Shown here: positions 13,013 through 33,456 of the stretch, piece after piece
Numbering within the stretch: position 1 is the stretch's first letter
Layout: every line of letters begins with the position of its first letter
Assembly (NCBI GenBank): GCA_025353905.1
Contig: JANXNW010000045.1
Span: 1 to 33,456, forward strand
DNA from: Hymenobacter sp.
Lineage (GTDB): Bacteria; Bacteroidota; Bacteroidia; Cytophagales; Hymenobacteraceae
Length of the DNA stretch: 33,456 nt
Direction of reading: 5' to 3'
The notes under the pieces: generated by a model
The model's input: only the letters and a program-made list of their open reading frames with translations
Told to the model about the DNA's origin: nothing
Databases searched by the model: none
Made by a program: the position numbers and the translations under genes

Positions 13013-13873
13013 ATGCAGATTCCCCTTTACCAAATAGACGCGTTTGCTAGTCGGCCATTTGCCGGCAACCCGGCCGCTGTGTGCCCCCTCGCGGCCTGGC
13101 TGCCCGACGCCACCATGCAGCTCATCGCGGCTGAAAACAACCTCGCCGAAACCGCCTTTTTCGTGCCCCTCGCGGCTGGAAATGCGGCCGGTGAAGCGGC
13201 CGGTTTCCACCTGCGCTGGTTCACGCCCACGTTTGAAATCGACCTTTGCGGTCACGCCACGTTGGCCACGGCCCACGTGCTGTGGACCGAGCTAGGCTTT
13301 GCCGGGGACGAAATCGTGTTTCAGAGCCAGAGCGGGCCGCTGCGGGTGCACCGCGAGGCCGACGGCCGGCTCGTGCTCGATTTTCCGAGCCGCCCGCCCC
13401 GGCCGCTGGCCCCCGCCCAGGACTCGGCCGACTTTCGGGCCGCGCTCACGGCCAGTCTGGGGCCAGGCGCGGCCGCGCCGCGGGCCGTGCTTGTCAGCCG
13501 CGATTTGGTAGTCGAGTTTGCCCAGGCAGCCGACGTGCTGGCCCTGCGCCCCGATTTCACGGCCCTGGCCGGCCTCACGGCCCTGGGCTACGTTGGGCTG
13601 ATTGCCACCGCGCCGGGGGCTGAGCCGGGCGTGGATTTTATTTCGCGTTTTTTCGCCCCTGAAGTGGGCGTACCCGAAGACCCCGTCACCGGCTCGGCCC
13701 ACAGTACGCTCATTCCGTTCTGGGCGGCCAAGCTGGGCCGCACCGAATTGTTCGCCCGGCAGGAGTCGGCGCGGGGCGGCGAGCTCTGGTGCCGGCTGCT
13801 GGGCGAGCGCGTGGCCATTGGCGGCTACGCTGTCACGTATTTGCGCGGGGCCATCCAGTTCGCGACGGCTTAG
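13013..13873 (+). CDS. PhzF-family isomerase
   Basis: MQIPLYQIDAFASRPFAGNPAAVCPL…NLAETAFFVP…LRWFTPTFEIDLCGHATLATAHVL…DPVTGSAHSTLIPFWA; PhzF hallmark motifs. Confidence 0.93.
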   Translation: MQIPLYQIDAFASRPFAGNPAAVCPLAAWLPDATMQLIAAENNLAETAFFVPLAAGNAAGEAAGFHLRWFTPTFEIDLCGHATLATAHVLWTELGFAGDEIVFQSQSGPLRVHREADGRLVLDFPSRPPRPLAPAQDSADFRAALTASLGPGAAAPRAVLVSRDLVVEFAQAADVLALRPDFTALAGLTALGYVGLIATAPGAEPGVDFISRFFAPEVGVPEDPVTGSAHSTLIPFWAAKLGRTELFARQESARGGELWCRLLGERVAIGGYAVTYLRGAIQFATA

Positions 13874-13912
13874 CGCGGCCGGTGGCGTTTCGCGGCGTTT
13901 CTTTGCCGCACC

Positions 13913-14626
13913 ATGCCCTTCGCCTCGCCGCTGACTTGTCTCATCGTTGATGACAACGAGATTAACCGCCTCACTCTAGAACACCTCGTGGACCTCACGC
14001 CTGAGCTGCGCCTGGTGGCCTCGCTGCCGGGCGGGCTGGAGGCGCTGGAGTTTTTCCGGCAGGGCGGGCAGTGCGAGCTGCTGCTGCTCGACATAGAAAT
14101 GCCCACCCTCAACGGCTTCGAGCTCGCCCGGCTGCTGCCCAAGCCGCCTCCGTTCATCGTGCTCGTTACCACGCACCGCGAGTTTGCCGTGGCCGCTTTC
14201 GACCTGCAAGTGGCGGATTACCTGGTGAAGCCCGTCGAGTTTGGACGCTTCTCGCAAGCCGTCGCCCGGGTGGTATCCCTGCGTCCGCCTTTGGCCGCCG
14301 ATGCCATCGAGATGCGGCCCGAGATATTTGTCAAAGTCGGCGGCCGCACGATACGCGTCAATTTCGACGACGTGCTCTACATCGAGGCCCTGTCCACCTA
14401 TTCGGTGCTCATCACGGCCAACCACAAGCACATCGTGTACCTGACCCTCAAAGCGCTGACCGAGCGGCTGCCCTTCGCCCATTTCGTGCGGGTGCATCGC
14501 TCCTACATCGTCAACATGCGCCACATCGAGGCTATCGAAGACAACGTGCTCCAAATCGGAGCGCACGAGGTGCCGGTCGGCAAGTCCTACCACGAAGAGT
14601 TTTTGCGCCAGCTGCGCAGCTTGTAG
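13913..14626 (+). CDS. LytTR-family response regulator
   Basis: REC domain (LIVDDNEINRLTLEHL…LLLDIEMPTLNGFELARLL…YLVKPVEF) plus LytTR domain (IFVKVGGRTIRVNFDDVLYIEALSTYSVLIT…FVRVHRSYIVNMRHIEAIE). Confidence 0.94.
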   Translation: MPFASPLTCLIVDDNEINRLTLEHLVDLTPELRLVASLPGGLEALEFFRQGGQCELLLLDIEMPTLNGFELARLLPKPPPFIVLVTTHREFAVAAFDLQVADYLVKPVEFGRFSQAVARVVSLRPPLAADAIEMRPEIFVKVGGRTIRVNFDDVLYIEALSTYSVLITANHKHIVYLTLKALTERLPFAHFVRVHRSYIVNMRHIEAIEDNVLQIGAHEVPVGKSYHEEFLRQLRSL

Positions 14627-14627
14627 G

Positions 14628-14792
14628 AGGTGAGTAGGTGAGAAGGTGAGAAGGTCAGTCATTGCGAGCGCAGCGAAGCAATCGCACCTGTTAGGCGCGT
14701 TGTTCAGCTCGGCGCTCGGCTCGTCAAACGTGCTCAACAGGTGCGATTGCTTCGCTGCGCTCGCAATGACTGACCTTCTCACCTACTCACCT
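14628..14792. repeat. long layered inverted repeat with core gtcattgcgagcgcagcgaagcaatcgcacctgtt
   Basis: Left arm 14628-14692, right arm 14736-14792; arms match except one extra octamer (ggtgagaa) in the left arm. Lies between convergent RR and HK genes. Confidence 0.93.
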
Positions 14793-17164
14793 ATTTCGTG
14801 GGGTAGCGCGGCCAGCGCGTACCTGGCTTGGGCGAGCAGCTGGGCGGCGGCGGCGGGCAGGTGGGCGAAGTCTTCGGGGCGGGCGGCTTCGAGCAGGCGC
14901 ACGGCTTCGGCCACGTCGGGCACGCCCACCGATTCGAGGCTGGGGCGGATATGGTGGGTGAGGTTGGCCGTTTCGACCCAGTGGCCAGCGGCGGCGGCCT
15001 CGGCGAGCTGGGCCAGGCTGGCGGGCATGTTGCGCAGGAACGAATCAATGATTTTACCCACGAACTCCTGCCGGCCCTGGGCCAGGCCGCGCAGCTTGGT
15101 TAGGTCGTAGGCCGGGCCGGCGGCCGGCTCCGGCGCGGGGGCCGCCGGGCGGGCGCCGGGGGCGGGCAGCAGGTCGGCCAGGGTGCGAAAGAGCAGGGCT
15201 TCGTCGAAGGGCTTGCTCAGGCAGGCATCGAGGCCGGCGGCCAGCGCGCGGGCCGCGTCGGTGGGGTCGGCGCTGGCCGTGAGCGCTATTACCGGCTGGC
15301 AAGCGCGGGCCGCGTCGGGCAAGGCCCGAATGGCGGCCGTCGTGTCGAGCCCGCTCAATCCGGGCAGGCGCAGGTCCATGAGCACGGCATCGTAGGGGGC
15401 GTTGGCGCGCACCAGGGCCAGCGCTTCGGGGCCGGTTTCGGCTTCGTCCACGCTCGCGCCCCAGCCTTCGAGCAGCAGCCGGGCCACGATGCGGTTCAGC
15501 TCATTGTCTTCGACGAGCAGCAGCCGGCGGCCGCGCAGCGCGCCGGTATCGTAGGGGTCGGCGGCGGGGTAATCGCCGGGGGCGCCGGCCGCCTCAGCCG
15601 GGGCCGGAATCAGGGCCGGGTTGGGGACCGGGGCTTTGGGCAGCGTCAGCCGAAAAACGAAGGTGCTGCCCTGGCCCAGCTCCGAATGCACCAGCAGCTG
15701 GCCGCCGAGCTGCGCGGTCAGCGCGTGCGAAATGCTTAGCCCCAGGCCCGTACCGCCGAAACGACGCCCGGTGTCGGCGTAGGCTTGGCTGAAGCTCTCA
15801 AAAATCAGCTCCTGCTTTTCGGGCGCGATGCCGATGCCCGTGTCGGTGACGCGGAAGCGGATGCTGAGCGAGTCGGCCGTTTCGGCGACTTGCTCGGCCA
15901 TTACGGTCACGTGCCCACCCGGCTCGGTAAACTTGATGGCGTTGGCCACGAGGTTTATCACAATCTGGTTGAGGCGGTAGGGGTCGCCGAGCACCCAGGG
16001 GTAGGGGCAGCTGGCGCGCAGCGGGGTGCTGGTCAGGTAGAGGCCCTTGTCTAGGGCCTGGGCCGCGAGCGGGCCCAGGCTCTCGGCCAGCGAGTCGCAG
16101 AGGTTGAACGGCACCACCTCGAAGCTGAGCTTGCCGGCCGTCATCTTGGCCAGGTCGAGCACGTCGCCCACCACGCGCAGCAGGTGCTGGCCCGTCTGCC
16201 GGATGGTGCGCACGTAGTCCTGCTGACGGGCGTCGAGCGGGGTTTTAGCCAACTGCCCGGCCAGGCCCAGCACCCCGTTGAGGGGCGTTCGGATTTCGTG
16301 GCTCACGTTGGCCAGGAAGCTTTCTCGGGCCCGCACGGCGGTTTCGGCGGCGGCTTTGGCTTGTTTGTGGGCTTGGTCGGTACGCACCCGCTCGGTGATG
16401 TCCTGGCCGTAGCCGATGACGTAGGGCGGCTGGCCGGGCTCGCGCACCAAGTGGTTGTCGTAGAGGATGTAACGCGTGCCGGCGGCCATGCGCACGGCCA
16501 CCACCCCGCGCTGGCTGCCAGTTTCGGCCATGCGGGCCAGGTAGGTGGCCACCCCAGCCCGGTGCTCGGGCGGAGCCAAGTCGGTTAGTTCGGCCAGGTT
16601 GGCCAAGTCGGCCAGCTCGGTTGAGTTGGTCAGCTTAGTCAGGTAGCTTCTGAATGGCTCAGCCGCCGGCACTTCGCTCAGCAGCTCGACGGCGGCCGGA
16701 TTCAGGCTCAGCAGGCGGCCGCCCAAATCGTGGGTGCAGATGAGGGCCTGCGAATAGGTCATCAGGTCGCGGTACTGCTTTTCGCGGCGGGCCAGCGCCT
16801 CGGTCGTGGCTACCTGGGCCGTGATGTCGGCCAGGTAGATGGTGGTGCCGTCGGCCGGCGGGGGCGCGCCGCTCACTATGTGCAGCTGAAACTGCCGCTC
16901 GCCGAGCCCGATACGGAGCGTACCGGCGGCCTCGCCGCGGGCAGCGGCGCGCAGCTGCCGCCGGGCCTGCAGGCGCTCGGCGCGGGTCAGGGACGCGTCC
17001 AGGGTCCGGGCGGCGGGGTTGGCGTACAGAGGACGGCCCGCCGCGTCGAGCCGCACGGTGGGGTGAGGGCTTTGGCTGAGCAGCGCGCGCAGGGCGGCCA
17101 GCTCGTCGGCCAGCGCATCGGGTGGGGCCGGGCGGGGCCGGCGGGGGGCAGAAGCGGCTTTCAT
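14783..17164 (-). CDS. hybrid sensor histidine kinase (PAS–HisKA–HATPase–REC–HPt)
   Basis: FLANVSHEIRTPLNGVLGLA; N/G boxes (NLVANAIKF, DTGIGI, GGTGLGLSIS); REC (LLLVEDNELNR…DAVLMDLRLPG…LSKPFDE); C-terminal HPt-like THHIRPSLESVG. Confidence 0.94.
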   Translation of the reverse strand: MKAASAPRRPRPAPPDALADELAALRALLSQSPHPTVRLDAAGRPLYANPAARTLDASLTRAERLQARRQLRAAARGEAAGTLRIGLGERQFQLHIVSGAPPPADGTTIYLADITAQVATTEALARREKQYRDLMTYSQALICTHDLGGRLLSLNPAAVELLSEVPAAEPFRSYLTKLTNSTELADLANLAELTDLAPPEHRAGVATYLARMAETGSQRGVVAVRMAAGTRYILYDNHLVREPGQPPYVIGYGQDITERVRTDQAHKQAKAAAETAVRARESFLANVSHEIRTPLNGVLGLAGQLAKTPLDARQQDYVRTIRQTGQHLLRVVGDVLDLAKMTAGKLSFEVVPFNLCDSLAESLGPLAAQALDKGLYLTSTPLRASCPYPWVLGDPYRLNQIVINLVANAIKFTEPGGHVTVMAEQVAETADSLSIRFRVTDTGIGIAPEKQELIFESFSQAYADTGRRFGGTGLGLSISHALTAQLGGQLLVHSELGQGSTFVFRLTLPKAPVPNPALIPAPAEAAGAPGDYPAADPYDTGALRGRRLLLVEDNELNRIVARLLLEGWGASVDEAETGPEALALVRANAPYDAVLMDLRLPGLSGLDTTAAIRALPDAARACQPVIALTASADPTDAARALAAGLDACLSKPFDEALLFRTLADLLPAPGARPAAPAPEPAAGPAYDLTKLRGLAQGRQEFVGKIIDSFLRNMPASLAQLAEAAAAGHWVETANLTHHIRPSLESVGVPDVAEAVRLLEAARPEDFAHLPAAAAQLLAQARYALAALPHEIGE
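16574..16645. repeat. degenerate 9-mer tandem repeat inside the histidine kinase gene
   Basis: Coding strand ctgactaag ctgaccaac tcaaccgag ctggccgac ttggccaac ctggccgaa ctaaccgac ttgg; encodes LTKLTNSTELADLANLAELTDL. Confidence 0.7.
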
Positions 17165-17317
17165 ACGCGGAGAAAATCCTTCGCCGACCAAGCGAAGCGC
17201 GACCGAATGTAGGCCCTCGCGTCCCAAAAAACTTTTGCCGCGGTGGGCAGAAGCCGCTTCTGAAACCAGCCGGCCCCGGCCCCGACGCAGACCCCCGACT
17301 CAGACCCTGACGCCGCG

Positions 17318-17989
17318 CTACTTGGGCCGTGGGGCGGCGCGGCGGGGCGCGGCGGTGGTCGTGGTCGAGGCCAGGGTGCGGGCGGGGTTGTCTTCCAGAA
17401 ACTTACCCCAGCTTTTGGTGCCGGCCTTGGCGTTGTTACCCTGCTGGTAGTGGTGGCAGAGGGCCACGGCGAGCGCGTCGGTGGCATCCAGAAACTTGCT
17501 GGCCTCGGCGATGGGCGGCAGGCTCAGCGTCTGGCGCAGGATGCGGGCTACCTGCTCCTTATCGGCTGCGCCCGAGCCGGTTACGGCCTGCTTGACTTTG
17601 GTCGGCGCGTATTCCACGAACGGAATGTCGCGGCTCAGGCAGGCGGCGATGGCCACGCCCTGGGCCCGGCCCAGCTTGAGCATACTCTGCACATTGACGC
17701 CGTAAAACGGAGCCTCGATGGCCAGCTCATCGGGCAGGTACTCGTCGATGAGCTCCAGCATCCGGCTGAAGATGCGCTTTAGCTTTACGGCATGATTGGC
17801 CGCTGTTCCGAGTGCTTTGAGGTTGATGACGTCGTAACAGCGCACGTCCACGTGCTGCCCGCGCACCTCGATGACGGCGTAGCCCATAATCTGGGTGCCG
17901 GGGTCGATGCCCATGATGACTTTTTCGGCCGGGGGCAGCCGCTGGGTGAGCTGGGTGGGGTGGGGAGCAAGAATACGGGAAACGGCCAT
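17318..17989 (-). CDS. ruvC: Holliday junction resolvase RuvC
   Basis: IMGIDPGTQIMGYAVIE…LAIEAPFYGVNVQSMLKLGRAQGVAIAA…YAPTKVKQAVTGSGAADKEQV…FLDATDALAVALCHHY. Confidence 0.95.
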   Translation of the reverse strand: MAVSRILAPHPTQLTQRLPPAEKVIMGIDPGTQIMGYAVIEVRGQHVDVRCYDVINLKALGTAANHAVKLKRIFSRMLELIDEYLPDELAIEAPFYGVNVQSMLKLGRAQGVAIAACLSRDIPFVEYAPTKVKQAVTGSGAADKEQVARILRQTLSLPPIAEASKFLDATDALAVALCHHYQQGNNAKAGTKSWGKFLEDNPARTLASTTTTAAPRRAAPRPK

Positions 17990-18021
17990 CTCGAACAAAG
18001 CTACGCCGCTCAGGCAGGGGA

Positions 18022-18173
18022 AGCCACTTGGGTTATTGGTTTTTGGTTGATGGTTGTTGGTTTTTGGGGTCGGCTGTTCGTGGTTGGGCGTTCGGTGCTG
18101 GAGGCCGCGAATCGAGCTGACCAACAACCAAAGACCAACAACCAACAACCAACAACCAAAAACCGAAGTGGCT
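18022..18173. repeat. layered inverted repeat of ttggttgttggtttttgg-type words
   Basis: Outer arms agccactt (18022-18029)/aagtggct (18166-18173); inner arms ggttattggtttttggttgatggttgttggtttttgg versus ccaacaaccaaagaccaacaaccaacaaccaacaaccaaaaacc. Confidence 0.88.
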
Positions 18174-18178
18174 GGATA

Positions 18179-19180
18179 GTGCTAGGTAAGCTGGCCGTGG
18201 CCGCCCTCACGCTGGGCCTGCTCTACCGCGCGGTATTCGCGGCCCCCGACACGGCGGCGGCCTGGCGACGGCTGCTGGCGGCCACCTTCAGCGGGGGGGC
18301 CGGCGCCACTTCCGGGCGCGGCCTGGTGCTGGCCGCGCTGGCGCTGGTGCCGCTCAATTGGGGCCTTGAAGCCTGGAAGTGGCACCGGCTGGCCCGTCAC
18401 CTCGGGCCGGGGCAGCGCTTCGGCGGCAGCCTGAAGGCGGTGTTGCTGGGCCTCACGCTGGGTTTTGCCACGCCCAACCGCGTCGGCGACTACGCCGCCC
18501 GGCTGCTGCTGCTGCCCGGCCGGCGGCGGGTGGCCGGCGTGGGGGCCGTGTTTCTGGGTCGCTACGCACAGCTCGTGGTTACGGTGCTGGCCGGCGCGGC
18601 GGGGCTGCTGTTTTTTGGGCTGAAATTTTACCCGGTGGGCTACCCGGCCGCTCAAGTGACCCTGGTGGCGGCGGCTGTGCTGCTGGCCGGAGCTGCGCTG
18701 CTGCCCCTTTACCAGGCGCGGCGGCTCGGGGCGCGGCTGGCCGCGCGGGGCTGGCGCGCGTGGCGTCTGGGCCGTTATCTGGGCCGCTGTTTGGCGGTGC
18801 TGCCTACGTACTCGGCTGGCGAGCTGCACGCGGTGCTGGCTTTGTCGGCAGCGCGCTACGCGGTGTTTTGCGCGCAGTTCGGCTTGCTGCTGGCGGCCTA
18901 CGGGGTGCGGGCCGCGCCGGGGCCGGCGCTGGCGGCCGTGGCGAGCACCTTCCTGCTCAAGTCGCTGGTGCCCTCACTCAGCGCGCTGACCGATGTGGGC
19001 GTCCGGGAGCTCTCGGCCACGCACCTATTTGGGCTGCTGGGGCAGCCGGCCCTGCCGGTACTCTCGGCCAGCCTGAGCCTGTGGGTGCTCAACATCGCGC
19101 TGCCCAGCGCCCTGGGCCTGCTGCTGCTGCCGGGGCTGCGCGTGTGGCGGGCGCGGCGCGGCTGGCGCGCGGTGCGATGA
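18179..19180 (+). CDS. flippase-like / lysylphosphatidylglycerol synthase TM-region (UPF0104) membrane protein
   Basis: Multi-TM protein …LNWGLEAWKWHRLARHLGPGQRFGGSLKAVLLGLTLGFATPNRVGDYAARLLLLPG…; GTG 18179 is a tentative start since the frame stays open through the upstream repeat. Confidence 0.8.
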   Translation: MLGKLAVAALTLGLLYRAVFAAPDTAAAWRRLLAATFSGGAGATSGRGLVLAALALVPLNWGLEAWKWHRLARHLGPGQRFGGSLKAVLLGLTLGFATPNRVGDYAARLLLLPGRRRVAGVGAVFLGRYAQLVVTVLAGAAGLLFFGLKFYPVGYPAAQVTLVAAAVLLAGAALLPLYQARRLGARLAARGWRAWRLGRYLGRCLAVLPTYSAGELHAVLALSAARYAVFCAQFGLLLAAYGVRAAPGPALAAVASTFLLKSLVPSLSALTDVGVRELSATHLFGLLGQPALPVLSASLSLWVLNIALPSALGLLLLPGLRVWRARRGWRAVR

Positions 19181-20625
19181 TTAGCGCGGCGCTGGTAGTT
19201 GGGATGGGGCTGCTGGGTGTGTCGGCGGTGTATGCGGGGGTGTGGGCGTGGCTGCGGGCTGGGGGGTTCTCGCCGCTCAACGACACCTCACCCCCTAGCC
19301 CCCTCTCCAAAAGAGAGGGGGGACTAGTTTCTAGCTCTAGTTCAAAAACAGATTTGAGCCTGATACTAGAAACTAGAACTAAGATTAGTCCCCCCTCTCT
19401 TTTGGAGAGGGGGCTAGGGGGTGAGGTGAGCGCGAGCGGCGAGAACCCCCTACTCTTCTCCGTCCTCGTTGCGGCCCGCGACGAGGCCGCTGCCCTGCCG
19501 CACCTGCTGCGCGCGCTGGCCGCCCAGACCCTGCCGCCGCCCTGTTTCGAGGTGCTCGTCGCCGACGACCACTCCACCGACGGCACCGCCGCCCTGGTGC
19601 TGGCCGCCGCCCGCACAGTGCCGTTTGCCCTCCGACTCATTCAGTTGCCGCCCGGCCAAACGGGTAAAAAAGCCGCCCTCACCGCCGCCGAAGCCCAGGC
19701 CCGCGCCCCCTGGGCCGCCTGCACCGACGCCGACTGCCGCCCCGCCCCCGGCTGGCTATTAACAATGAGTGAATGGGCTGGGCCAATGAGTGAATGGGCG
19801 AATGAGCGAATGAGTGAGGAAGAGGCGGCAATGAGTGAAGGAGTGAACGAGCGAATGAGTGATGAATTAAAAGCTCAGGAAGCTGAAAAAGCCCGCGAAG
19901 TCCCCACTCACTCAGTCACTCAGTCACTCAGTCACTCATTCACCCACTCACTCACTCACTTTCTGAGTGGGCCGGTGCGGCTTACGCCGGGCGGGGCTTG
20001 GTTTGATGGGCTGCTGGGACTGGAATTCGCCGGGCTCGGGGCAGTGGGGGCGGGGTGCATCGCGCGCCAGCAGCCCACGATGTGCAACGGGGCCAACCTG
20101 GCGTTTCGGCGCGCCTCGTTTCAGGAGGTGGGCGGCTACGGGGCGGCGGGCGGGGCCAGCATTGCCAGTGGCGACGACGAGTTTCTGCTCCACGAGATGC
20201 AGCGGCGCTACCCGGATGGGGTGCGCTTCGTGGCCGACGCGCGCGCCGTGGTCGATACGCCCGCTCCGGCCACGCTCGGGCGGCTGTTGGCCCAACGGGT
20301 GCGCTGGGCCAGCAAGTACCCGCACTATCGCTCGGCCGCGCCCCGCCGGCTGGCCCTGCTCGTGCTGAGCGCCAACCTGAGCCTGACCCTGGCCGCCGGG
20401 CTGGCGGCTGGCTGGCCGGCGCTACGGCCCTGGGCGGCGGCGGCGGCCGGGCTCAAGCTCGGCGCCGACGGGCTGCTGCTCTGGCCCATGCTGGGTCTGC
20501 TGGGCCGGCGGCGCTGGCTGGGCTGGCTATTGCCGCTGCAACTGCTGTACGCGCCCTATGCGCTGGCCGTGGCGCTGCGCGCCCGCGCCGGGCCCTACCA
20601 GTGGAAAAGCCGGACCGTGCGCTAG
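19177..20625 (+). CDS. family 2 glycosyltransferase with two in-frame repeat-derived insertions
   Basis: ATGA overlap with upstream gene; SVLVAARDEAAALPHLLRAL…VLVADDHSTDGTAALV…CTDADCRP…CNGANLAFRR…SGDDEFLLHEM…LLAQRVRWASKYPHYR; GT2 motifs interrupted by two low-complexity segments. Confidence 0.9.
   Translation: MISAALVVGMGLLGVSAVYAGVWAWLRAGGFSPLNDTSPPSPLSKREGGLVSSSSSKTDLSLILETRTKISPPSLLERGLGGEVSASGENPLLFSVLVAARDEAAALPHLLRALAAQTLPPPCFEVLVADDHSTDGTAALVLAAARTVPFALRLIQLPPGQTGKKAALTAAEAQARAPWAACTDADCRPAPGWLLTMSEWAGPMSEWANERMSEEEAAMSEGVNERMSDELKAQEAEKAREVPTHSVTQSLSHSFTHSLTHFLSGPVRLTPGGAWFDGLLGLEFAGLGAVGAGCIARQQPTMCNGANLAFRRASFQEVGGYGAAGGASIASGDDEFLLHEMQRRYPDGVRFVADARAVVDTPAPATLGRLLAQRVRWASKYPHYRSAAPRRLALLVLSANLSLTLAAGLAAGWPALRPWAAAAAGLKLGADGLLLWPMLGLLGRRRWLGWLLPLQLLYAPYALAVALRARAGPYQWKSRTVR
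19262..19450. repeat. layered inverted repeat inside the glycosyltransferase CDS
   Basis: Outer arms 19262-19278/19434-19450 (17 bp perfect); second layer 19284-19326/19386-19428 (cacctcaccccctagccccctctccaaaagagaggggggacta, 43 bp perfect); 59-nt interior with ctagtttctag words. Confidence 0.95.
19765..19961. repeat. second inverted repeat array (aatgagtg/cactcatt words) inside the glycosyltransferase CDS
   Basis: Left part 19765-19863 of gaatgagcgaatgagtga words; right part 19904-19961 of cactcagtcactcattcacc words; translated in frame. Confidence 0.9.
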
Positions 20626-20629
20626 AGCG

Positions 20630-20742
20630 GATTTCGATTTGATGTATGTAGCGCGCAGCCTTAGCTGGGCGGGTAAAAATCTCTTATCTAACGCTCTACG
20701 CGCCCAGCTAAGGCTGCGCGATACATACATCAAATCGAAATC
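20630..20742. repeat. inverted repeat, 42-nt arms (41/42), 29-nt loop
   Basis: gatttcgatttgatgtatgtagcgcgcagccttagctgggcg (20630-20671) versus cgcccagctaaggctgcgcgatacatacatcaaatcgaaatc (20701-20742). Confidence 0.95.
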
Positions 20743-20823
20743 TGTCTTATTGTATGTCTAAGCTCTCAACTCTAAAATCTAACTCAAACAATGTCTGAAG
20801 CCGCGAAGTAGCCGCCCGCCCGC

Positions 20824-20831
20824 TACCTTCG
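20824..20831 (+). promoter_or_regulatory. candidate -7 box TACCTTCG for the TPR gene
   Basis: Near-consensus TAnnTTTG, about 42 nt before the start codon, in the right arm of a small hairpin (20801-20834, ccgcgaagtagc/gctaccttcgcgg). Confidence 0.35.
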
Positions 20832-20872
20832 CGGCGCTGACTAACCTGGTCAGGGCTTACTCAGATACGTCT

Positions 20873-21979
20873 ATGCTTTCAACACGTACCCTGCTGACCG
20901 GCTGCCTCTTTGCGCTGAGCTTGCGCGCCGCCCCGGCCCTGGCGCAGGTTGATAGTGTGCGCGCCCGCACCCTGCCCGGCCGGCAGCTGGCCGAAAAAGC
21001 CTACAACGCCGGCCTGGTCAGCTTACAGGCCCACCAGTACGCCGCCGCGCTGACCAGCTTCAACCAGGCCCTGGCTACCAAGCCCGACTTTGCCCCGGCC
21101 TACACCAACCGCGCCGCAACCCAGCTGGGGCTCAAGAACTACGTCGCCGCCGTGGCCGACTACACCCAGGCCAGCCGTCTCAAGCCGGGCGCGTTCGAGC
21201 CGCTGATGGGGCGCGGGCAGGCTCACGAAGCCGCCGGCCAGCTTACTGAGGCCGAAGCCGACTACACGGCCGCCCAGCTAGCCAACCCGGCCTACGCCCC
21301 GGCCTGGTACGGGCGCGGGGTGCTGCGCTTCGAGCGGGGCGACTACGCGGCCGCGCTCAGCGATTTCGACGACGCCCTCAAGGTCGACCCCAAGTACGCC
21401 TACGCCTACCACGACCGGGCCAGCACCAACCTGCGCCTGGGCCATCCGGCCGAAGCCCTGCCCGACTACACCAAAGCGCTGGCCCTGGAGCCCACCCTGC
21501 TGCCGGCCCTGCTCAACCGGGCCGCCGCCGCCCGCCGCCTCGGCCGCCTCGACGATGCCCTGCGCGACTACGACGCTTACCTGGAAAAGGTGAGCACCAA
21601 TCCGTTGGCTTTTACGAATCGCGGTAATGCCCGCTTCGAGCAGCAGGACTACGTGGGGGCGCGCTCCGACTACGCCCGCGCTATCGTCCTCGACGCGAGC
21701 TACGCCTACGCCTGGAACAACCGCGCCGCCGCCGAGCTCAAGCTCCAGCACTACGAGCAGGCCGTCGCCGACGCCACCGAGGCCCTGCGCCTGCGCCCCG
21801 ACTACGCCGAAGCCTACCTCAACCGGGGCCACGCCCGCGAAATGCTGCGCCTCGCCGATGGCGCCTGCGCCGACTGGCGCCGCGCCGCCGAGCTGGGCCA
21901 GGCCGCGGGCAACGACTATGCCGCCGCCGCCGGCTGCGGTGGCCCCGCTGGCGAGGCCCCCACCACCACCGATAAATAG
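20873..21979 (+). CDS. secreted TPR-repeat protein
   Basis: Signal peptide then repeated TPR units (AYTNRAATQLGLKNYVAAVADYTQASRLKP; AYHDRASTNLRLGHPAEALPDYTKALALEP). Confidence 0.92.
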   Translation: MLSTRTLLTGCLFALSLRAAPALAQVDSVRARTLPGRQLAEKAYNAGLVSLQAHQYAAALTSFNQALATKPDFAPAYTNRAATQLGLKNYVAAVADYTQASRLKPGAFEPLMGRGQAHEAAGQLTEAEADYTAAQLANPAYAPAWYGRGVLRFERGDYAAALSDFDDALKVDPKYAYAYHDRASTNLRLGHPAEALPDYTKALALEPTLLPALLNRAAAARRLGRLDDALRDYDAYLEKVSTNPLAFTNRGNARFEQQDYVGARSDYARAIVLDASYAYAWNNRAAAELKLQHYEQAVADATEALRLRPDYAEAYLNRGHAREMLRLADGACADWRRAAELGQAAGNDYAAAAGCGGPAGEAPTTTDK

Positions 21980-22028
21980 CGCCTCCGCTACTGGGAAGCA
22001 GTTTTATTCACCTCCTGATTGCCTTGCT

Positions 22029-24149
22029 ATGGCTCCAAAAACTACGCCTCTGGATAAGCTATTTCGCCGGGGCGCGCGGTTGCTTTTGCTGCTGCTGCTT
22101 ACGCTGCCGCTCGGCAACCTGGCCTGGGGCCAGGCGCGCAACGTGGAATTCACCCCGGAAAAAATAACCGACCGCGAAAGCCTGCGCGAGGCCCTGCGCG
22201 AGCTCAAGGCCGGCGACGAGGTCTACCGCGCCGACCCGCCCCGCTACGGCATCGCCCTGCCATTCTACCTGCGCGCCCAGCAGCGCAACCCCGACAACGC
22301 GGCCCTGAACTCGAAAATCGGCGACTGCTACCTGCACTCGGCTACCAAAGCGCTGGCGCTGCCTTATTTGCAGCGCGCCCTGGCCCTGGCCGCGCCCGCC
22401 GGCCCGCGCGACCACTACCTGCTGGCCCGCGCCCTGCACCTGAGCGCCAAGTGGGCCGAGGCCATTAAGGAATATGAGCTGGCCGGGCCGGTGGGCGGCA
22501 GCCGCCAGGCCGACGAAGGCGAGCTGACCGTGACGGCCGCCGACCTGGCCCGCCGGGTGCAGGAGTGCCGCAACGGCCAGACGATGGAGCAGCACCCGGT
22601 GCGCGTGTTCGTGGACAACCTCGGGCCGGCCATCAACTCGCCCGAGGCCGATTACAGCCCTGTCGTGTCGGCCGACGAAACCACGCTGCTCTTCACCTCG
22701 CGCCGGCCGGGGCCGGGCACCCCGCCCAAAGACGCCACCGGCGACGGCTACTACGAGGATATTTTTCAGGCTGAGCAAGTGGATGACGTCTGGGGCAAGG
22801 CCACTAACCTGGGGCCCGCCGTGAACGCGCCCGCCCGCCACGACGCCACCGTGGGCCTGGCCCCCGACGGCCAGCGCCTGCTCGTATATGTGGACGAAAA
22901 CGGCGGCGACCTGCGCGAAAGCACCCTGCGCGGCACCGCCTGGGGGCCGCCCCAGCGCCTGGGCGGCCGCATCAACTCGCGCTACCACGAGTCGTCGGCC
23001 TCGTACTCGCCCGATGGGCGGGTTTTGTATTTCGTCAGCGACCGGCCCCCTGCGGATGGGCCGGGCGCTCAGGGCGGGCGCGACATCTACAAGATAGAAA
23101 TCGATGGGACCAGCCCGGCCCAGAACCTGGGGCCGACCATCAACACGCCCTACGGCGAGGAAGCCGTGTTCGTGCTGCCCGATGGCAAGACGATGTACTT
23201 CTCGTCGGAAGGCCACGACACGATGGGCGGCTACGACATCTTCAAATCGACGTTTGAAGACGGCAAGTGGAGCAAGCCCGAAAACCTGGGCTGGCCGATA
23301 AATACGCCCGACGACGACGTGTTTTTCGTAACCTCAGCCTCGGGCCGGCACGGGTATTACTCGTCCGAGCGGCCCGGTGGGCTCGGCGGCAAGGACATTT
23401 ACCTGGTCACGTTCCTGGGGCCGGAAAAGCCGCCCGTGCTCAGCGAGGAAAGCCAGCTGCTGGCTTCCCGACTGGCCCCGCTCAACGAGACGCTGCTCGC
23501 GCCGCCCATCGGGCTGGCTACGGCCAGGGTGACCATCCTCAAGGGCGTCGTGACGGATGCCGTCAGCAAGCAGCCGCTCGAAGCCACGATTGACCTGGTA
23601 GACAACAAGTCGGGCGAAACCATCGCCACCTTCCGCGCCAACGCCGCCTCGGGCCGCTACCTGGTGAGCCTGCCCTCGGGCATCAACTATGGCATCGTGG
23701 TGCGGCAGGACGGCTACTTGTTTCACTCCGAGAATTTCGACCTGCCCGCCGCCGCCACCTACGCCGAGGTCATCAAGGATATCGCCCTCAAAAAGCTCGA
23801 AGTGGGCGCGGTTATCGTGCTGAATAACATCTTTTTCGACACGGGCAAGGCCAACCTGCGCTCCGAAAGCACCGCCGAGCTGGAGCGCTTGCGCAAGCTG
23901 CTGGCCACCACGCCCACGCTGAAGCTCGAAATGGCCGGCCACACCGACAACGTGGGCAAGCCCGCCTTCAACCGCGACCTGAGCCAGCGCCGCGCCCAGG
24001 CCGTGGTTAGCTACCTCACCCAGCACGGCGTGAGCGCCGGGCGCCTGAGCGCCGCCGGCTTCGGCGAAACCCGCCCCGTAGCCCCCAACACCAAGCGGTC
24101 GGGCAGGCAGCTCAATCGGAGAACTGAGTTCAAGGTAACGGGTAAATAG
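22029..24149 (+). CDS. OmpA-family protein with TPR-like, PD40 propeller, regulatory-like and OmpA_C domains (PorE-like)
   Basis: Signal peptide; PD40 motifs (DYSPVVSADETTLLFTSRR, SYSPDGRVLYFVSDRP, FVLPDGKTMYFSSEGHDTMGGYDIFKS); ILKGVVTDAVSKQPLEATIDLVD; OmpA_C FFDTGKANLRSES…MAGHTDNVG…LSQRRAQAVVSYL. Confidence 0.9.
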   Translation: MAPKTTPLDKLFRRGARLLLLLLLTLPLGNLAWGQARNVEFTPEKITDRESLREALRELKAGDEVYRADPPRYGIALPFYLRAQQRNPDNAALNSKIGDCYLHSATKALALPYLQRALALAAPAGPRDHYLLARALHLSAKWAEAIKEYELAGPVGGSRQADEGELTVTAADLARRVQECRNGQTMEQHPVRVFVDNLGPAINSPEADYSPVVSADETTLLFTSRRPGPGTPPKDATGDGYYEDIFQAEQVDDVWGKATNLGPAVNAPARHDATVGLAPDGQRLLVYVDENGGDLRESTLRGTAWGPPQRLGGRINSRYHESSASYSPDGRVLYFVSDRPPADGPGAQGGRDIYKIEIDGTSPAQNLGPTINTPYGEEAVFVLPDGKTMYFSSEGHDTMGGYDIFKSTFEDGKWSKPENLGWPINTPDDDVFFVTSASGRHGYYSSERPGGLGGKDIYLVTFLGPEKPPVLSEESQLLASRLAPLNETLLAPPIGLATARVTILKGVVTDAVSKQPLEATIDLVDNKSGETIATFRANAASGRYLVSLPSGINYGIVVRQDGYLFHSENFDLPAAATYAEVIKDIALKKLEVGAVIVLNNIFFDTGKANLRSESTAELERLRKLLATTPTLKLEMAGHTDNVGKPAFNRDLSQRRAQAVVSYLTQHGVSAGRLSAAGFGETRPVAPNTKRSGRQLNRRTEFKVTGK

Positions 24150-24211
24150 CGCGAGAGCAGGGCTCTTGGCAGCCCCTCTTCACGCGCGCCTCGCGACTTG
24201 GGACACTCGCC

Positions 24212-24261
24212 CCACTGGTCGGCCTGCCGTTGCGCGCCGCGCGCTAAACGGCGGCCAGTGG
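24212..24261. terminator. possible hairpin between convergent OmpA-family and pullulanase genes
   Basis: ccactgg…gccgtt / aacggc…ccagtgg interrupted stem; no clear U-tract. Confidence 0.3.
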
Positions 24262-24273
24262 CGCCTGCGGCAC

Positions 24274-26301
24274 TTACTGCACCAGAATGAGGGCCGTGCT
24301 GCCCGGCAAGCTTAGGCCGGCCGTGCCGACTTCTACCTTGTCCAGTCCGGCGGGGTTGATGGCCATCCCGCGCAGTACGGCCCGGTACTGGCCGGGCGGC
24401 ACGGGCAGCGCGGCGGGGGCGGCGGTGCCGTTGAAGAGCACCGTGATGCTGGCCCAGCGGTCTTGGCCGGCGTGGTCGAGCAGCTGGTAGCCGAGCGTGC
24501 CGGGCGGCAGGCCGGGCAGAAAAACCAGGTGCCGCGCAATCAGCTCCTGGGTGGGCAGCCGAAAAGCCGGGTGCGCCCGGCGCAGGGCAATGAGCTGGCG
24601 GTAAAACTCGCTCACGGCGCGGTAGCGGGCCTTGCGCGCCCAGTCGAGCCGGTTCACGCTGTCGGGCTGATTGTAGGAGTTGGAGCTGCCGCCTTTGGTG
24701 CGCAGAAAGTCGTCGCCGACCGCCAAAAACGGCACCCCCTGCGAGGTAAAAACGATAGTGGCGGCCAGCGCGTCGAGCCGGATGAGCTCCTCTTCGCTGG
24801 CGGCGGGGTGGGCGGCGCGCAGCTCGTCCCAGAGCGTGCGGTCGTCGTGGCAGGCCACGTAATTGAGGGCCTGGCCGGGCTGGCTGGCCCAGGGCGCTTG
24901 GCTGTAATTGACTTTCGAATAATCTATTTGCGGATGCTGCGTGGCCCCCACGATACCAAACTTGACGCTCTCCTCCAGGCCCGGCCGGCCGCCGGCGAAG
25001 CCGCCCACGGTGGGCTGGTTATAGGGCCCCTTGACAGCATCGCGCAGCTCGTCGCCGAAGGCCGCCACCCGGCTGAGCTGCCCGAGGTTGGCTTTCACGG
25101 CGCGCTCGGCTTCGGGCAGGGGCGAGGGGCCGGCCGCCCAGCCTTCGCCGTACACGAAAATGCGGTGGTCAATCAGGTCGAGGGACACGCGCACGGCCCG
25201 CATCGTGCCCACGTCGAGCACCCCCATCAAATCAAACCGGAAGCCGTCGAGGTGGTAGGCCCGCGCCCAGTACGTGGTGGCGTCCACGATGAGCTTGCGC
25301 ACCATGGGCCGCTCCGAGGCCAGCTCGTTGCCGCAGGCCGTAGCATTGGCCAGCGAGCCATCGGCCCGGTGCCGAAAATAATAGCCCGGCACGAGCTGCT
25401 CGAACGCGCTGGAGCCGGCGTCGGCGACGTGGTTGAAGACGACATCGGCCACTACGCCCAGCCGGTGCTGGTGCAGGGCAAGCACGAGCTGGCGCAGCTC
25501 GCGGACGCGGGCAGCCGGGTCAGCGGCATCGGTGGCGTAGGTGCCCTCGGGCACGAAATAATTCAGCGGGTCGTAGCCCCAGCCATAGCGGTCGGGCTGG
25601 GCGGGCGCGGCTTCGTCGAGCGAGTTGAAATCGTTGAAAGGCAGCAGGTGCAGGTGCGTAATGCCCAGCTCCAGCAAGTGCTGCAGGCCGGTGCTCACGC
25701 CGCCCGGCCCGGTGGTGCCGACCTGCGTCAGGCCCAAAAACCGGCCCCGGTGGGCGGCGCTCACGCCCGAGGCCGGGTCGCTGGTGAGGTCGCGGACGCT
25801 GGCTTCGCCGATGACGATGTCGGTGGCGTTGGGCTGGCGCGGGCGCTGGTCGTCGGCCCAGCCAGGCGGGGTGGCCTGGCTGGGGTCGAGCCAGGCCCCG
25901 CGCTGGCCGTTCACGCCCACGGCGCGGGCGTAGGGGTCGGGCACCTCGGCCCGCGCCTGGTCCCCGATGGTGGCCTGCACGGTGTAAAATCCGCCCGTGC
26001 CGGCCGGTCGCGTGGCGTACCAGGTGCCTTGCGACCCCCGCTTCATGGCGAAGCTGCCCGTGGCCGTGCCGCCCGTGCCGGCCGCGTAAAGGCGCAGCCG
26101 AACGTTTTTGGCCGTGGGGGCCCAAACGAGCAGCGTACCCTGGCCGGTCTGCGAATCGAACGTCAGGCCCAGGTCGGGGCCGGTGTAGTGAGGGTAGAGT
26201 GCAGTCGGGAAGCGGCGCTCGTCGGGGTCGGGCGGGGCGGCTGGTTGGCCGGGCGAAAGGGTAGGAGCGAGCACGAGAAGCAGGAGCAGCAGGCGGTTCA
26301 T
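24274..26301 (-). CDS. pulA: type I pullulanase (GH13)
   Basis: Signal peptide; YGWGYDPLNYFVPEGTYA, DVVFNHV, LDGFRFDLMGVLD, VYGEGW, NYVACHDDRTLWDEL; GH13 regions I-IV present. Confidence 0.92.
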   Translation of the reverse strand: MNRLLLLLLVLAPTLSPGQPAAPPDPDERRFPTALYPHYTGPDLGLTFDSQTGQGTLLVWAPTAKNVRLRLYAAGTGGTATGSFAMKRGSQGTWYATRPAGTGGFYTVQATIGDQARAEVPDPYARAVGVNGQRGAWLDPSQATPPGWADDQRPRQPNATDIVIGEASVRDLTSDPASGVSAAHRGRFLGLTQVGTTGPGGVSTGLQHLLELGITHLHLLPFNDFNSLDEAAPAQPDRYGWGYDPLNYFVPEGTYATDAADPAARVRELRQLVLALHQHRLGVVADVVFNHVADAGSSAFEQLVPGYYFRHRADGSLANATACGNELASERPMVRKLIVDATTYWARAYHLDGFRFDLMGVLDVGTMRAVRVSLDLIDHRIFVYGEGWAAGPSPLPEAERAVKANLGQLSRVAAFGDELRDAVKGPYNQPTVGGFAGGRPGLEESVKFGIVGATQHPQIDYSKVNYSQAPWASQPGQALNYVACHDDRTLWDELRAAHPAASEEELIRLDALAATIVFTSQGVPFLAVGDDFLRTKGGSSNSYNQPDSVNRLDWARKARYRAVSEFYRQLIALRRAHPAFRLPTQELIARHLVFLPGLPPGTLGYQLLDHAGQDRWASITVLFNGTAAPAALPVPPGQYRAVLRGMAINPAGLDKVEVGTAGLSLPGSTALILVQ

Positions 26302-26326
26302 GCCGGCAAGCTACGGGGCGGAGCGA

Positions 26327-26393
26327 GTGAATGAGCGAATGAGTGAAATAGTCTTTGTCCTCCACTCTCTCATTCACTCATTTGCTCATTCAC
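26327..26393. repeat. short inverted repeat gtgaatgagcgaatgagtgaa / ttcactcatttgctcattcac
   Basis: Arms 26327-26347 and 26373-26393, 20/21 complementary, 25-nt loop; shares 18-nt gaatgagcgaatgagtga with the in-frame array at 19800-19817. Confidence 0.93.
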
Positions 26394-26397
26394 CCCC

Positions 26398-27069
26398 TTA
26401 CTCCCCGCCAAAGCGGTAGCGCAGGCCCAGCGACGCGGACCCCACCGCCGTGCCGGGCGGGTTGAGCAAAGTCGTGGACAGATAGCCGCCCAGTACCATC
26501 TCGAATTGCGCGTCGAGCAGACCAACTAAGCGGCAGCTCACGCCGGGACCGATGCCGAGCAGCAGGTTGCGGGCGTTGGTGTTGAATTCGGAGGTAGCGG
26601 GGTTGTTCGGGAAGGGGTTAGGACCGTTGAAAGTGGTAGTCCCGGTCGAAGTGTATTGCCCGCACTCGTAGACGAAGCCGCCCAGCGCATACACCTGCAC
26701 CCGTTGGGTAGGGCGGCGCGTGAGGGTGTAGCGTCCCAGCAGGGCCAGGGCCAGCCGCCGGTCCGTTGCCGTGCCCTGTTGCGTGAATGGATACTCCGTC
26801 CCGCTGGCATCGCGGTAGCTACTAGGCAAGAAATAGTTGGACCGGTACGAGCTGTACGTGGCGCTGAGCTGCACCGCCCATCGGGGCCGCAGCTGGTAGC
26901 CAAGTGTGAGCTGCCCGGGCACGCCCACGCCGACGCCCGGCGACTGGTAGTAGCTCGTGTAGAGGGCCGCCCCGACGTAGAAGCGCTGAGTCGGAGCCGG
27001 TGGCGAGGGCACTTGCGCGTGAGCGGCCAGGGGCAGGGCTAAAAGCAGCAGTAGTTGATGCAGTCGCAT
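26398..27069 (-). CDS. outer-membrane beta-barrel protein
   Basis: Signal peptide MRLHQLLLLLALPLAAHAQ; alternating amphipathic strands; C-term ASLGLRYRFGGE. Confidence 0.75.
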   Translation of the reverse strand: MRLHQLLLLLALPLAAHAQVPSPPAPTQRFYVGAALYTSYYQSPGVGVGVPGQLTLGYQLRPRWAVQLSATYSSYRSNYFLPSSYRDASGTEYPFTQQGTATDRRLALALLGRYTLTRRPTQRVQVYALGGFVYECGQYTSTGTTTFNGPNPFPNNPATSEFNTNARNLLLGIGPGVSCRLVGLLDAQFEMVLGGYLSTTLLNPPGTAVGSASLGLRYRFGGE

Positions 27070-27147
27070 AGCGAGGTGGGGAAAAGAGGAAAGAGAAAGA
27101 ACATCCTGGAGCGAACAGGCAGTCAGCCCAAGCCACCGATACGGTTG

Positions 27148-27822
27148 CTACCGTGAGCCCAGGCCGTAGCGCAGCCCCAGCGACAGGCCCGGGTCGGGCA
27201 CCGAGCGCAGCGCCATTACGTAGCTGTTGAGCGTAGCATCGAGCACGATTTCCAGGCGCTGAGCGCAGCGGTAGCGCGCACCCAGCCCGGCCGTGAGCCG
27301 GCCCAGCTCGTAGGCGTAGCCTTCGCGAAAGCTCGTGGTGGAAGAGACGTTCGTGCCGTAGTCCGTGTAGGTGTATTGGTAGAAGCTGCGGTAGCGCATC
27401 TGCTGAAGCACGTAGCCGCCCAGCAGGTCGAGTTGCAGGCGGCGCGCCGGCCGGCGCAGTGCGTAGCGCGCCAGCACCGCCCAGCTGAGCCGTCGCCAAC
27501 TGGCCTGCCCCACGTACTCGTTGCCATAGTCGGAGCCAGCGCTTTGCTGCCGGGAGCTGAGCTTGGAGTAGTCGAAGGTGGGGCGGCTGTAAGTCAGGGC
27601 GAATTGCAGGGTCAGCCGGGGCCGCAGCCGGTACCCGACGCTGGCCTGCACGGGCACTACCAGCTCGGCCAGGGAATTACCGCCAGCCTGTTGAAAATCA
27701 TCGTGTTGTGCGCTCAGACCCAGGTAATAGCGCGCCACGGGTGGGGCGGGCAGCTCCGGAATCTGGGCCAGGGCGCGGCCCAGGCTGCTCAGTAGCACCA
27801 GCAAAAGCAGTAGGCGTAACAT
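27148..27822 (-). CDS. outer-membrane beta-barrel protein (tandem paralog of the 26398 gene)
   Basis: MLRLLLLLVLLSSLGRALAQ; YYLGLSAQHDDFQQ…VGYRLRPRLTLQFALTYS aligns by eye with FYVGAALYTSYYQS…LGYQLRPRWAVQLSATYS. Confidence 0.75.
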   Translation of the reverse strand: MLRLLLLLVLLSSLGRALAQIPELPAPPVARYYLGLSAQHDDFQQAGGNSLAELVVPVQASVGYRLRPRLTLQFALTYSRPTFDYSKLSSRQQSAGSDYGNEYVGQASWRRLSWAVLARYALRRPARRLQLDLLGGYVLQQMRYRSFYQYTYTDYGTNVSSTTSFREGYAYELGRLTAGLGARYRCAQRLEIVLDATLNSYVMALRSVPDPGLSLGLRYGLGSR

Positions 27823-27931
27823 AGCAGGTCCAGGGAGGAGTTAAGCTTGCCTGAGCAAATGTAATGGGCAGACCGCCATGCCCAAAAGCGCGGATGGACG
27901 AGCTCAAGCGGCTCCGGCTGCTCACCAACCC

Positions 27932-27939
27932 TACTTTTG
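27932..27939 (+). promoter_or_regulatory. -7 promoter box TACTTTTG for the sce7726-like gene
   Basis: Exact TAnnTTTG match 21 nt before the start codon. Confidence 0.5.
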
Positions 27940-27960
27940 CCTGTCCGCCATCAAACCTCC

Positions 27961-28569
27961 ATGAACGACCCCGCCCTGCGCGCCCGCCTCTACCCCTTGC
28001 TCACGGGCGGCGTATGGGTGGACGAGCTGCCCACCGGCAGCACCCGCGCCGACGTGGTGCACATCACCGAGCATTTCATGCACGGCTACGAGCTCAAGGG
28101 CGACGGCGACACGCTGGTCCGGGTTAAAAACCAGCTGCGCTGCTACGCTGAAGTGTACGACTTTGTCACGTTCGTCGTCACCGAAAAGCACCTGCCCAAG
28201 CTGTTGCCCCGGCTGCCCGCCTGGGTGGGCGTACTCGTGGCCGGGGCCGCCGAGAGCGACGGTTTGCGCCCGCACCGCCCGGCCGCCTACAACGCCCGGG
28301 TGCAGCGCGCACCCCTCGCGGCGCTGCTGCTGCTCGACGAGGTAAAGCAGTATTTACTGGCCCAGGGCCTGGCCGGGGCCAGCACCCTGCGCCAGCGCGA
28401 CGTGGCCCGCTACCTGCGCACGGCCCACGGCCTGCCCCTGTCGGGCCTGGCCCGGCACGTGCGCGAGCGGCTCATCGCCCGCCTGCCCGAGCGTCTGCAC
28501 TGGCGCGAGGTGCGCCGCGCCGAGCGCCAGCTCGTCAAGCAGGTGCGGGCGCGCCGCCGGGCCAAGTGA
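27961..28569 (+). CDS. sce7726-family-like protein (possible nuclease-fold)
   Basis: VWVDELPTGSTRADVVHITEHFMHGYELKGDGDTLVRVKNQLRCYAEVYDFVTFVVTEKHLPKLLPRLPAWVGV resembles the sce7726 pattern, with a D…ExK triad. Confidence 0.75.
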   Translation: MNDPALRARLYPLLTGGVWVDELPTGSTRADVVHITEHFMHGYELKGDGDTLVRVKNQLRCYAEVYDFVTFVVTEKHLPKLLPRLPAWVGVLVAGAAESDGLRPHRPAAYNARVQRAPLAALLLLDEVKQYLLAQGLAGASTLRQRDVARYLRTAHGLPLSGLARHVRERLIARLPERLHWREVRRAERQLVKQVRARRRAK

Positions 28570-28573
28570 AACT

Positions 28574-28659
28574 GTGAGACATGAGACTGTGGGAAGTGAG
28601 ATATGAGACTATCGCCTGATAACGTCTCATGTCTCACTTCCCACAGTCTCATGTCTCAC
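28574..28659. repeat. 36-bp hairpin inverted repeat (35/36), 14-nt loop
   Basis: gtgagacatgagactgtgggaagtgagatatgagac (28574-28609) versus gtctcatgtctcacttcccacagtctcatgtctcac (28624-28659); fills a convergent junction. Confidence 0.95.
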
Positions 28660-28660
28660 C

Positions 28661-31600: not shown

Positions 31601-32074
31601 GAGGCTCAGGTCGGCGGTGGGCACGCGGGTGGCGGCCGTGTGCCGGGTGCCGCGCAGGCCCCAGCTGCGGCCGAGCGAGTCCACGCGCTGGGTCAGGGCC
31701 ACCTCGCGCAGGGTGAGGCGCGTCACCTGCACCTGGCGGCGCAGCAGCGCCCGCAGGCTCAGGCGCAGGTCGGCGCGGCCCACGGCCAGCACCCGCACCG
31801 CGCGCCCGTGCGAGGTGTCGGTCAGGGCCAAATGCCCGAGCGAGGCCGTGAGGTGCGGGAAGTCGTGCCACACCGAAAACTCCACCTCGAACGGACTCAG
31901 CACCAGCTCCGAGCCCTGGGTGAGGCGGGTGCGCAATTGCTGCCGCACGTAGTCCTGCCCATAGCGGCCGCTCACGAGCCAGCCCACGCCGGCCAGCCCC
32001 AGCCCGAGCAGCACCAGCAGCAGGAGCAGCGTAGCGGCTACCCAGCGCCCAATCCGACCGGCCTTCGACTTCAT
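28661..32074 (-). CDS. AsmA-like protein
   Basis: N-terminal TM, then …VLSPFEVEFSVWHDFPHLTASLGHLALTDTS…; C-terminal LDGRADLFLGLSPLHALLGNNERRK; 1137 aa. Confidence 0.83.
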   Translation of the reverse strand: MKSKAGRIGRWVAATLLLLLVLLGLGLAGVGWLVSGRYGQDYVRQQLRTRLTQGSELVLSPFEVEFSVWHDFPHLTASLGHLALTDTSHGRAVRVLAVGRADLRLSLRALLRRQVQVTRLTLREVALTQRVDSLGRSWGLRGTRHTAATRVPTADLSLDSLLIYNFRLDTRNDYIKSALRAQVAKARLSASLRGGVLAVRGQATGRLEQLRNRTGELLTDEPVRVWLNYRYGFAARRGEFLDSRATLNGDTVRVSGEHRADTAAVPRGTVLALRFAGSQPLLSVLGVALPPSLRPFLKDARSPSKAHITYLMDGLSGPKARPHVELRFALRGAQVQWPDPARRIDRWDLSGTYDNGPAHRPETMSLTLSECRIHSPAGLLDVAFAVRNFRRPVVSGRLRGRTALPALAALLSVPGPWRARQGTADLDVQVRGRLPAADPMRRDSRRDLRRDFLANTHLAVRGTATLHEAAFDLGPGRPDLHGLNVRIGLNDSVWHLSNASGVLAGMRFRASGTTRYLFDYLLDRQPTTDIKGELTLDQLDLASLRALLRRPAAGGAAVATASGAPDSLPGRTAMVGRTTPPPRRSRAARQRIVTTLGSRFVPAGLRFDVALRCGRLGLATDTLRALAVRVRHDGERIQLSGIRGRLWAGEVGGEAQWPTDSTNRVAPVSYNLRFKFDTLSYRYLLGRLTRPPRHPARRAGGPSGSPAIRELLLAANGQITCDIGGLGLPGGEQLRELRLRLEKRGNGLLLPELRFVAPQGGVGLGSATATLDGLHLTSADATLDLRYLSLDVPRLLRLLASVAPPAPDSAATVARADRRARRALARGAEGPAPSVFVDGTFTARLRVQAEQVRYGPVRGSQFQLSSRLRAGEALLDDCTLNALDGRVTLRGRLRTNAGRQHHPLQAQVLLEDIDLSTLFATAAALRPSLPGADNIRGRLRCAAALRTDLDERFLLELDQTNAYLKADLRGLELVDLEALREAFRFKFLQKRTEHLYFEPVSSEFLLSRGELLIPDLRLNSNLTELQLSGRYDLDGRADLFLGLSPLHALLGNNERRKARIQAGEPVRRRPGGRLTYVHLRREAPREKYRVRFFQQKEFAQAQASVRRLSHQLLLSQRLDTTLHLLPARLLSGGEAPR

Positions 32075-32104
32075 ATGGGCAAGCTACGTCAGGAGCCAGT
32101 GAAT

Positions 32105-32277: not shown

Positions 32278-32337
32278 CTCAAACCGCGCATCTTTGCGCT
32301 TATTGCCGGCCGGCTGGCCTTTTAGCCCTTACGTTTT

Positions 32338-33375: not shown

Positions 33376-33456
33376 GCGAAGTGAGGACTGAAATTCAAAG
33401 CTGATTGGGCAAGCGCACTGGCACACTCAGCGCACCTTACTTGGCACGGGAAAGGG

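Follow-up and report, generated by a model that had tools for sequence, protein, structure and literature searches.

A palindrome read in frame within a Hymenobacter glycosyltransferase gene is probably a worn copy of a dispersed repeat family

The window analyzed here is a stretch of 33,456 nucleotides from the draft genome of a Hymenobacter species (labeled G000), and it contains a 189-bp palindrome coded in frame within a family 2 glycosyltransferase gene (Table 1). The ATG of this gene overlaps the stop codon of the upstream gene, and its product matches PF00535 over residues 95-197 with an E value of 5.9e-16. The palindrome lies in the linker that joins the N-terminal membrane helix to the GT2 domain, where it is read through as the peptide SPPSPLSKREGG...LERGLGGEV. 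Its parts follow the order host G-run, outer arm, step, REP-like hairpin, spacer, inverted hairpin, step, outer arm, and host C-run.

Table 1. The glycosyltransferase gene and the parts of the palindrome, in window coordinates
Feature	Position	Strand	Description	Basis
Family 2 glycosyltransferase	19177..20625	+	482 aa	ORF list; PF00535
Outer arms	19262-19278 / 19434-19450		17 bp, exact reverse complements; left = gggggttctcgccgctc	read from sequence
GGGGG	19262..19266	+	outermost 5 bp of left outer arm; host codons	orthologue alignment
Left outer arm	19267..19278	+	TTCTCGCCGCTC; genome-specific family module	recurrence in G000
Left step	19279..19283	+	5 nt, aacga, noncomplementary	read from sequence; within 19-nt word common to C1
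Left inner arm	19284..19326	+	43 nt: CACCTCACCCCCTAG guide and hairpin CCCCCTCTC-CAAAA-GAGAGGGGG	fold and genome word matches
Spacer word	19324..19334	+	ctagtttctag	read from sequence
Degenerate spacer/loop	19327..19385	.	59 nt	inverted-repeat search; spacer complementarity comparison
Spacer word	19366..19376	+	ctagaaactag, complement of 19324-19334, shifted register	read from sequence
Right inner arm	19386..19428	+	43 nt, inverted copy of left inner arm	sequence; inverted-repeat search
Right step	19429..19433	+	5 nt, agcgc	read from sequence
Right outer arm	19434..19445	+	GAGCGGCGAGAA	sequence; motif comparison
CCCCC	19446..19450	+	host codons leading into Pro-Leu-Leu-Phe	C-run at same place in G074

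The initial annotation described 17-bp outer arms, a 5-nt noncomplementary step, and perfect 43-bp inner arms, all of which were borne out by direct reading of the sequence; the inner arms are perfectly complementary throughout. The loop was also said to have its own ctagtttctag/ctagaaactag complement, and this pair is present, though its register is offset from that of the arms by 12 nt. When the whole is taken together, an inverted-repeat search returns two 65-nt arms (19262-19326 and 19386-19450) that are 92% complementary and 59 nt apart. Folding of the 145-nt core yields -65.4 kcal/mol (z = -14.05 relative to dinucleotide shuffles), a value that none of 200 shuffles reached; thus, the palindrome is not a product of chance. 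A single arm is a hairpin by itself (-10.7 kcal/mol, z of -3.09 against shuffles), and the two inverted REP-like arms together form one long hairpin. No per-copy covariation was found in the inner spacer, where own and swapped pairings scored 8.4 and 8.7 in G000, 5.7 and 6.3 in a second genome (G009), and 7.1 and 6.3 elsewhere. A search of window positions 13500-33456 against Rfam at the gathering score gave no matches and hence no known RNA family.

Other palindromes are present in the window. The same glycosyltransferase gene has a second in-frame palindrome at 19764-19970 (ATGAGTGAATG... / ...CACTCATTCACCCACTCACTCA), a kind found in frame only in the window among 120 orthologues; one orthologue (L196) has a different palindrome with stop codons. 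Another family (GTCATTGCGAGCGCAGCGAAGCAATCG) is represented by two copies, at 14635-14793 and 32122-32264, with arms of 67 and 64 nt. Three further long palindromes of different sequence lie at 18022-18173, 20630-20742, and 28574-28659, one of them directly 3' of the glycosyltransferase stop codon.

The palindrome under study is a worn copy of a dispersed family of short, mobile-looking palindromes found across Hymenobacter. With up to one mismatch allowed, G000 has 26 forward and 26 reverse occurrences of the 17-nt word CCCCCTAGCCCCCTCTC and none of a reversed control pattern, and many contigs of this draft assembly terminate at the repeat. Of 31 Hymenobacter genomes, 30 contain a match to the whole unit, and the exact 37-nt arm was found in 28 stretches of a named genome set, every one from Hymenobacter. 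In a phylum-wide sample, only 6 of 296 genomes had matches: the window's own, one more Hymenobacter, and four with a single isolated half-site. The titles and abstract openings covered by a literature search included no publication on this Hymenobacter family. The initial annotation held that its idea of layered growth would fail if the whole 189-bp unit recurred elsewhere as one conserved element, and what we found lies halfway. Among the other copies in G000, the closest has 87% identity, yet its match spans positions 9-154 of a 159-nt query starting at 19276 and thus ends in the step.

We extracted 69 two-armed copies (24 from G000, 21 from G009, and 24 from other genomes) and, in the 67 that had 60 nt of flanking sequence at each end, compared the self-complementarity of each copy's own flanks to that of flanks swapped between copies. 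In G000, own flanks averaged 13.8 versus 7.3 when swapped (22 copies); the corresponding values were 6.3 and 6.2 in G009 (21 copies), where the signal is absent, and 7.4 and 6.0 in other genomes (24 copies). Of the element ends in G000, 26 of 47 have a GAGCGGCGAG-like motif alongside, compared to 0 of 42 in G009 and 1 of 48 in other genomes; at a control distance of 200 nt, the counts were 0 of 45, 1 of 42, and 2 of 47, respectively. A second locus in G000 (contig C1) matches the left outer arm together with its step, CTCGCCGCTCAACGACACC, at 19 of 19 positions. Given the motif at element ends and this exact recurrence, the outer layer and its step form a family module particular to this genome. 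The proposal that the outer layer consists of glycosyltransferase codons was accordingly rejected save for the terminal G- and C-runs: GGGGG is found at the same place in three orthologues (G093, G091, and G074), and G074 has both runs in place, yet without the GAGCGGCGAG arm. By these alignments, the host codons in the outer arm are the outermost GGGGG/CCCCC only.

These data bear on whether the palindrome grew locally, by template switching at a replication hairpin that copied the element's own flank as an outer layer. Template switching makes perfect outer arms beyond an imperfect step, the outermost GGGGG/CCCCC is indeed host sequence, and some G000 copies are symmetric far out (41 nt in L029 and 33 nt in L005). 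Such growth should leave outer arms that occur nowhere else and come from the local flank, and only the 5-bp runs are of host origin, whereas the outer module is found again at other G000 loci and G009 has the same core without it. Moreover, the long symmetric flanks of L005, L064, L029, and L062 are alike by eye, so that they look like family sequence too. We consider local growth improbable, and the suggestion that this particular copy grew at its locus by copying enzyme codons is not supported, as both the outer motif and the 19-nt arm occur elsewhere in G000. The broader view in the initial annotation, of template switching or nested insertion with sequentially added layers rather than one transposition, fared better in part: the layers are modular and the outer ones vary by locus and genome, but the recurrence of the outer arm runs counter to locus-specific growth.

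The outer arm does not have a straightforward history, since its identical 19-nt counterpart at C1 calls for gene conversion or recent copying. In the sister species G093, the right flank GGTGTCGTTGGCGA mirrors the window's left arm GGTGTCGTTGAGCGGCGAG, and the left segment is missing; it is plausible from this mirroring that an ancestor had matching outer arms, with the step reflecting later erosion. The left outer segment of G091 and G074 aligns with that of the window, though its letters differ from the G000 module, suggesting that the insertion at the glycosyltransferase locus was probably inherited. Orthologous inserts (L108, L133, L135, and L183) have extra modules, either symmetric or one-sided. 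An extra mini-hairpin (GAGACCCC..GGGGC) is found in both arms of L108 and in the left arm only of L133 and L135, and it is possible that this asymmetry came about through arm-to-arm copying.

A different account of the layers is nested insertion, in which a REP-like doublet was put into the loop of an older target palindrome with GAGCGGCGAG arms. REP dimers inside target palindromes have been described in A. variabilis, T. roseum, and H. neapolitanus (Di Nocera 2013, PMC3733652, section 7), a direct precedent for this account, and the outer motif is both common to copies and genome-specific. As in those cases, the Hymenobacter arrangement is concentric, with a doublet within a larger symmetric sequence, and nested REP dimers are the nearest precedent for its onion shape. 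It differs in its genome-specific outer arm and in the relatives of the window's gene, given that glycosyltransferase orthologues without the outer arm retain the core. This counts against nesting, which we regard as a possible but doubtful origin.

To survey the linker, we took the top match in each of 120 genomes and scored the 240 nt 5' of the domain for inverted repeats, with 359 segments from the same genes and their upstream DNA as controls. A score of at least 16 was reached by 28 of 120 linker segments compared to 0 of 359 controls, and all 20 shuffles were beaten by 47 of 120 compared to 14 of 359. Two of the 28 (L184 and L186) are terminator-like hairpins upstream of the linker, which leaves 26 of 120 linkers with a strong palindrome. 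The upstream membrane segment is kept in frame in 25 of these 26, the exception being L205, at a hydropathy threshold of 1.6 that L181 missed at 1.55 and was accepted by eye. The linker occupants belong to several families, including the window's, a GC-rich relative, a AATGAAGAATT family, a AGTTAAAAGT family, and others. Occupant class changes at least 30 times on a FastTree tree of 117 rows, and the window's family alone accounts for at least 16 changes; these counts are rough, as the tree has 41 open forks and the 37 labeled rows were labeled by hand. Closely related sister genes can have different palindrome families (L181 versus L205, and L172 versus L169 and L170).

A similar pattern was seen between two close genomes, G029 and G085, which are 99.4% identical over a 140-kb chained alignment (258 kb aligned overall, in stretches chosen partly for holding repeats). 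Seven replacement blocks had both alleles between 15 and 300 nt; a palindrome scoring at least 12 was present in at least one allele of five blocks and in both alleles of three. At two slots where G029 has the window's family, G085 has another palindrome or a composite, and a third slot is common to both. The initial annotation had proposed comparing strains for empty sites, and in this pair the window's family showed neither a clean empty site nor a target duplication, its two variable slots being replacements rather than insertions. Clean insertions involved only other elements (116, 124, and about 1,200 nt), and short target duplications accompanied only those of 116 and 124 nt. In G029, L241 5942-6128 and L243 8520-8697 lie in intergenic slots that are filled by a different palindrome family in L242 and L244 of G085, with no empty site. 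Near 1570405 on G029:C1 (in L265), the two genomes have a common outer arm (GTAGGGTGCGG) around inner sequences of 67 and 23 nt in G029 and G085, respectively, with a middle layer in one genome only.

It is conceivable, and we propose it tentatively, that palindrome families replace each other at fixed slots such as linkers and gene ends, through recombination or hairpin repair, the glycosyltransferase copy being the present occupant of its slot. The palindrome-bearing two-sided blocks and the sister glycosyltransferase genes with different families both favor such exchange. The sample is small and from a single genome pair, however, the blocks contain some nonpalindromic flank, and homologous recombination of whole intergenic alleles would give the same picture. 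Exchange of this kind is compatible with the dispersed-repeat origin that we prefer. A stronger version, which strikes us as rather unlikely, is that fixed slots including interdomain linkers have unrelated families swapped through them without an empty site, the linker being rewritten in frame as a cassette and the layers being scars of exchange.

Palindromes within protein-coding sequence are known mainly from Rickettsia, along with scattered REP inserts. In Hymenobacter, open frames extending at least 50 codons to either side surround 14 of the 69 two-armed copies, and all 10 ORFs submitted to Pfam from among these have domains, so that in-frame insertion into unrelated genes is apparent from the predicted ORFs. 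The domains include those of methylmalonyl-CoA mutase, Hen1, a CoA transferase, a UvrD-like helicase (twice), a penicillin-binding protein, and a subtilase. In L021, L042, and L049, the insert separates annotated domains, and in L092 and L095, it sits within one; in L068, the true start may be downstream of the insert. The insert occupies the same site in the UvrD-like helicases of G000 and G009, which are 61% identical; Di Nocera and coworkers have noted REPs at roughly matching positions in two recB genes of Xanthomonas (PMC3733652, section 15). The RPEs of Rickettsia are described as palindromes of about 150 bp that lie in frame within unrelated genes (PMC10969869, PMC3733652), a description that the Hymenobacter element resembles. 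They belong to another phylum, and in Hymenobacter, one linker is reused by several families across the genus. By analogy, and as far as these descriptions go, RPEs appear to be the nearest functional precedent.

REPINs, described as inverted REP doublets with movement by RAYTs proposed (PMC3116915), and BIME-like REP doublets are likewise similar in having two inverted short hairpins, a variable spacer, high copy number, and dispersal. Two inverted hairpin units around a spacer were found in the 69 two-armed copies and in the folds of the arm and the whole element. The Hymenobacter element differs by its extra outer arm and by ACTAG inner ends instead of a GTAG tag: no GTAG/CGTC tetranucleotide stands at the end of the window hairpin, which is followed by GACTAG, and ACTAG inner ends are found in L102-L104 and L170. 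Nor was a Y1/RAYT gene seen beside the copies. MITEs are also short and nonautonomous with inverted terminal symmetry, but no target duplication was seen for the Hymenobacter family. We considered a Y1 transposase (RAYT) as the mobilizing enzyme, given that Y1 counts correlate loosely with repeat counts (rho of 0.48, P = 0.006, 31 genomes). This candidate was rejected. Among 20 sampled Y1 loci, none was flanked by the core, apart from one weak match with four errors, and two genomes (G008 and G026) have 61 and 58 repeat matches yet no Y1 match. We therefore name no enzyme for mobility.

Collectively, our findings suggest that the palindrome is probably a worn, dispersed, nonautonomous repeat made of two inverted REP-like hairpins around a variable spacer, together with an outer arm typical of G000. 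Direct observations are the existence and spread of the family, the module that forms the outer arm, and the in-frame location of the insert in the linker joining membrane helix and GT2 domain. The element would have arrived as one folded unit and may have been moved in trans, as a single-stranded hairpin, by some host or transposase enzyme. Copies that land in frame in flexible linkers would persist because translation through the palindrome gives a peptide that the protein can tolerate, and the layers would represent family modules eroded at different speeds, not successive copying of the locus's own flanks. The glycosyltransferase palindrome is a good natural example of selfish repeats tolerated inside proteins. 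With one gene from about 120 related species having several palindrome families in the same linker, the series amounts to a replicated natural experiment, and it allows tests of how selfish repeats get into proteins, of selection versus mere tolerance, and of whether one palindrome can replace another.
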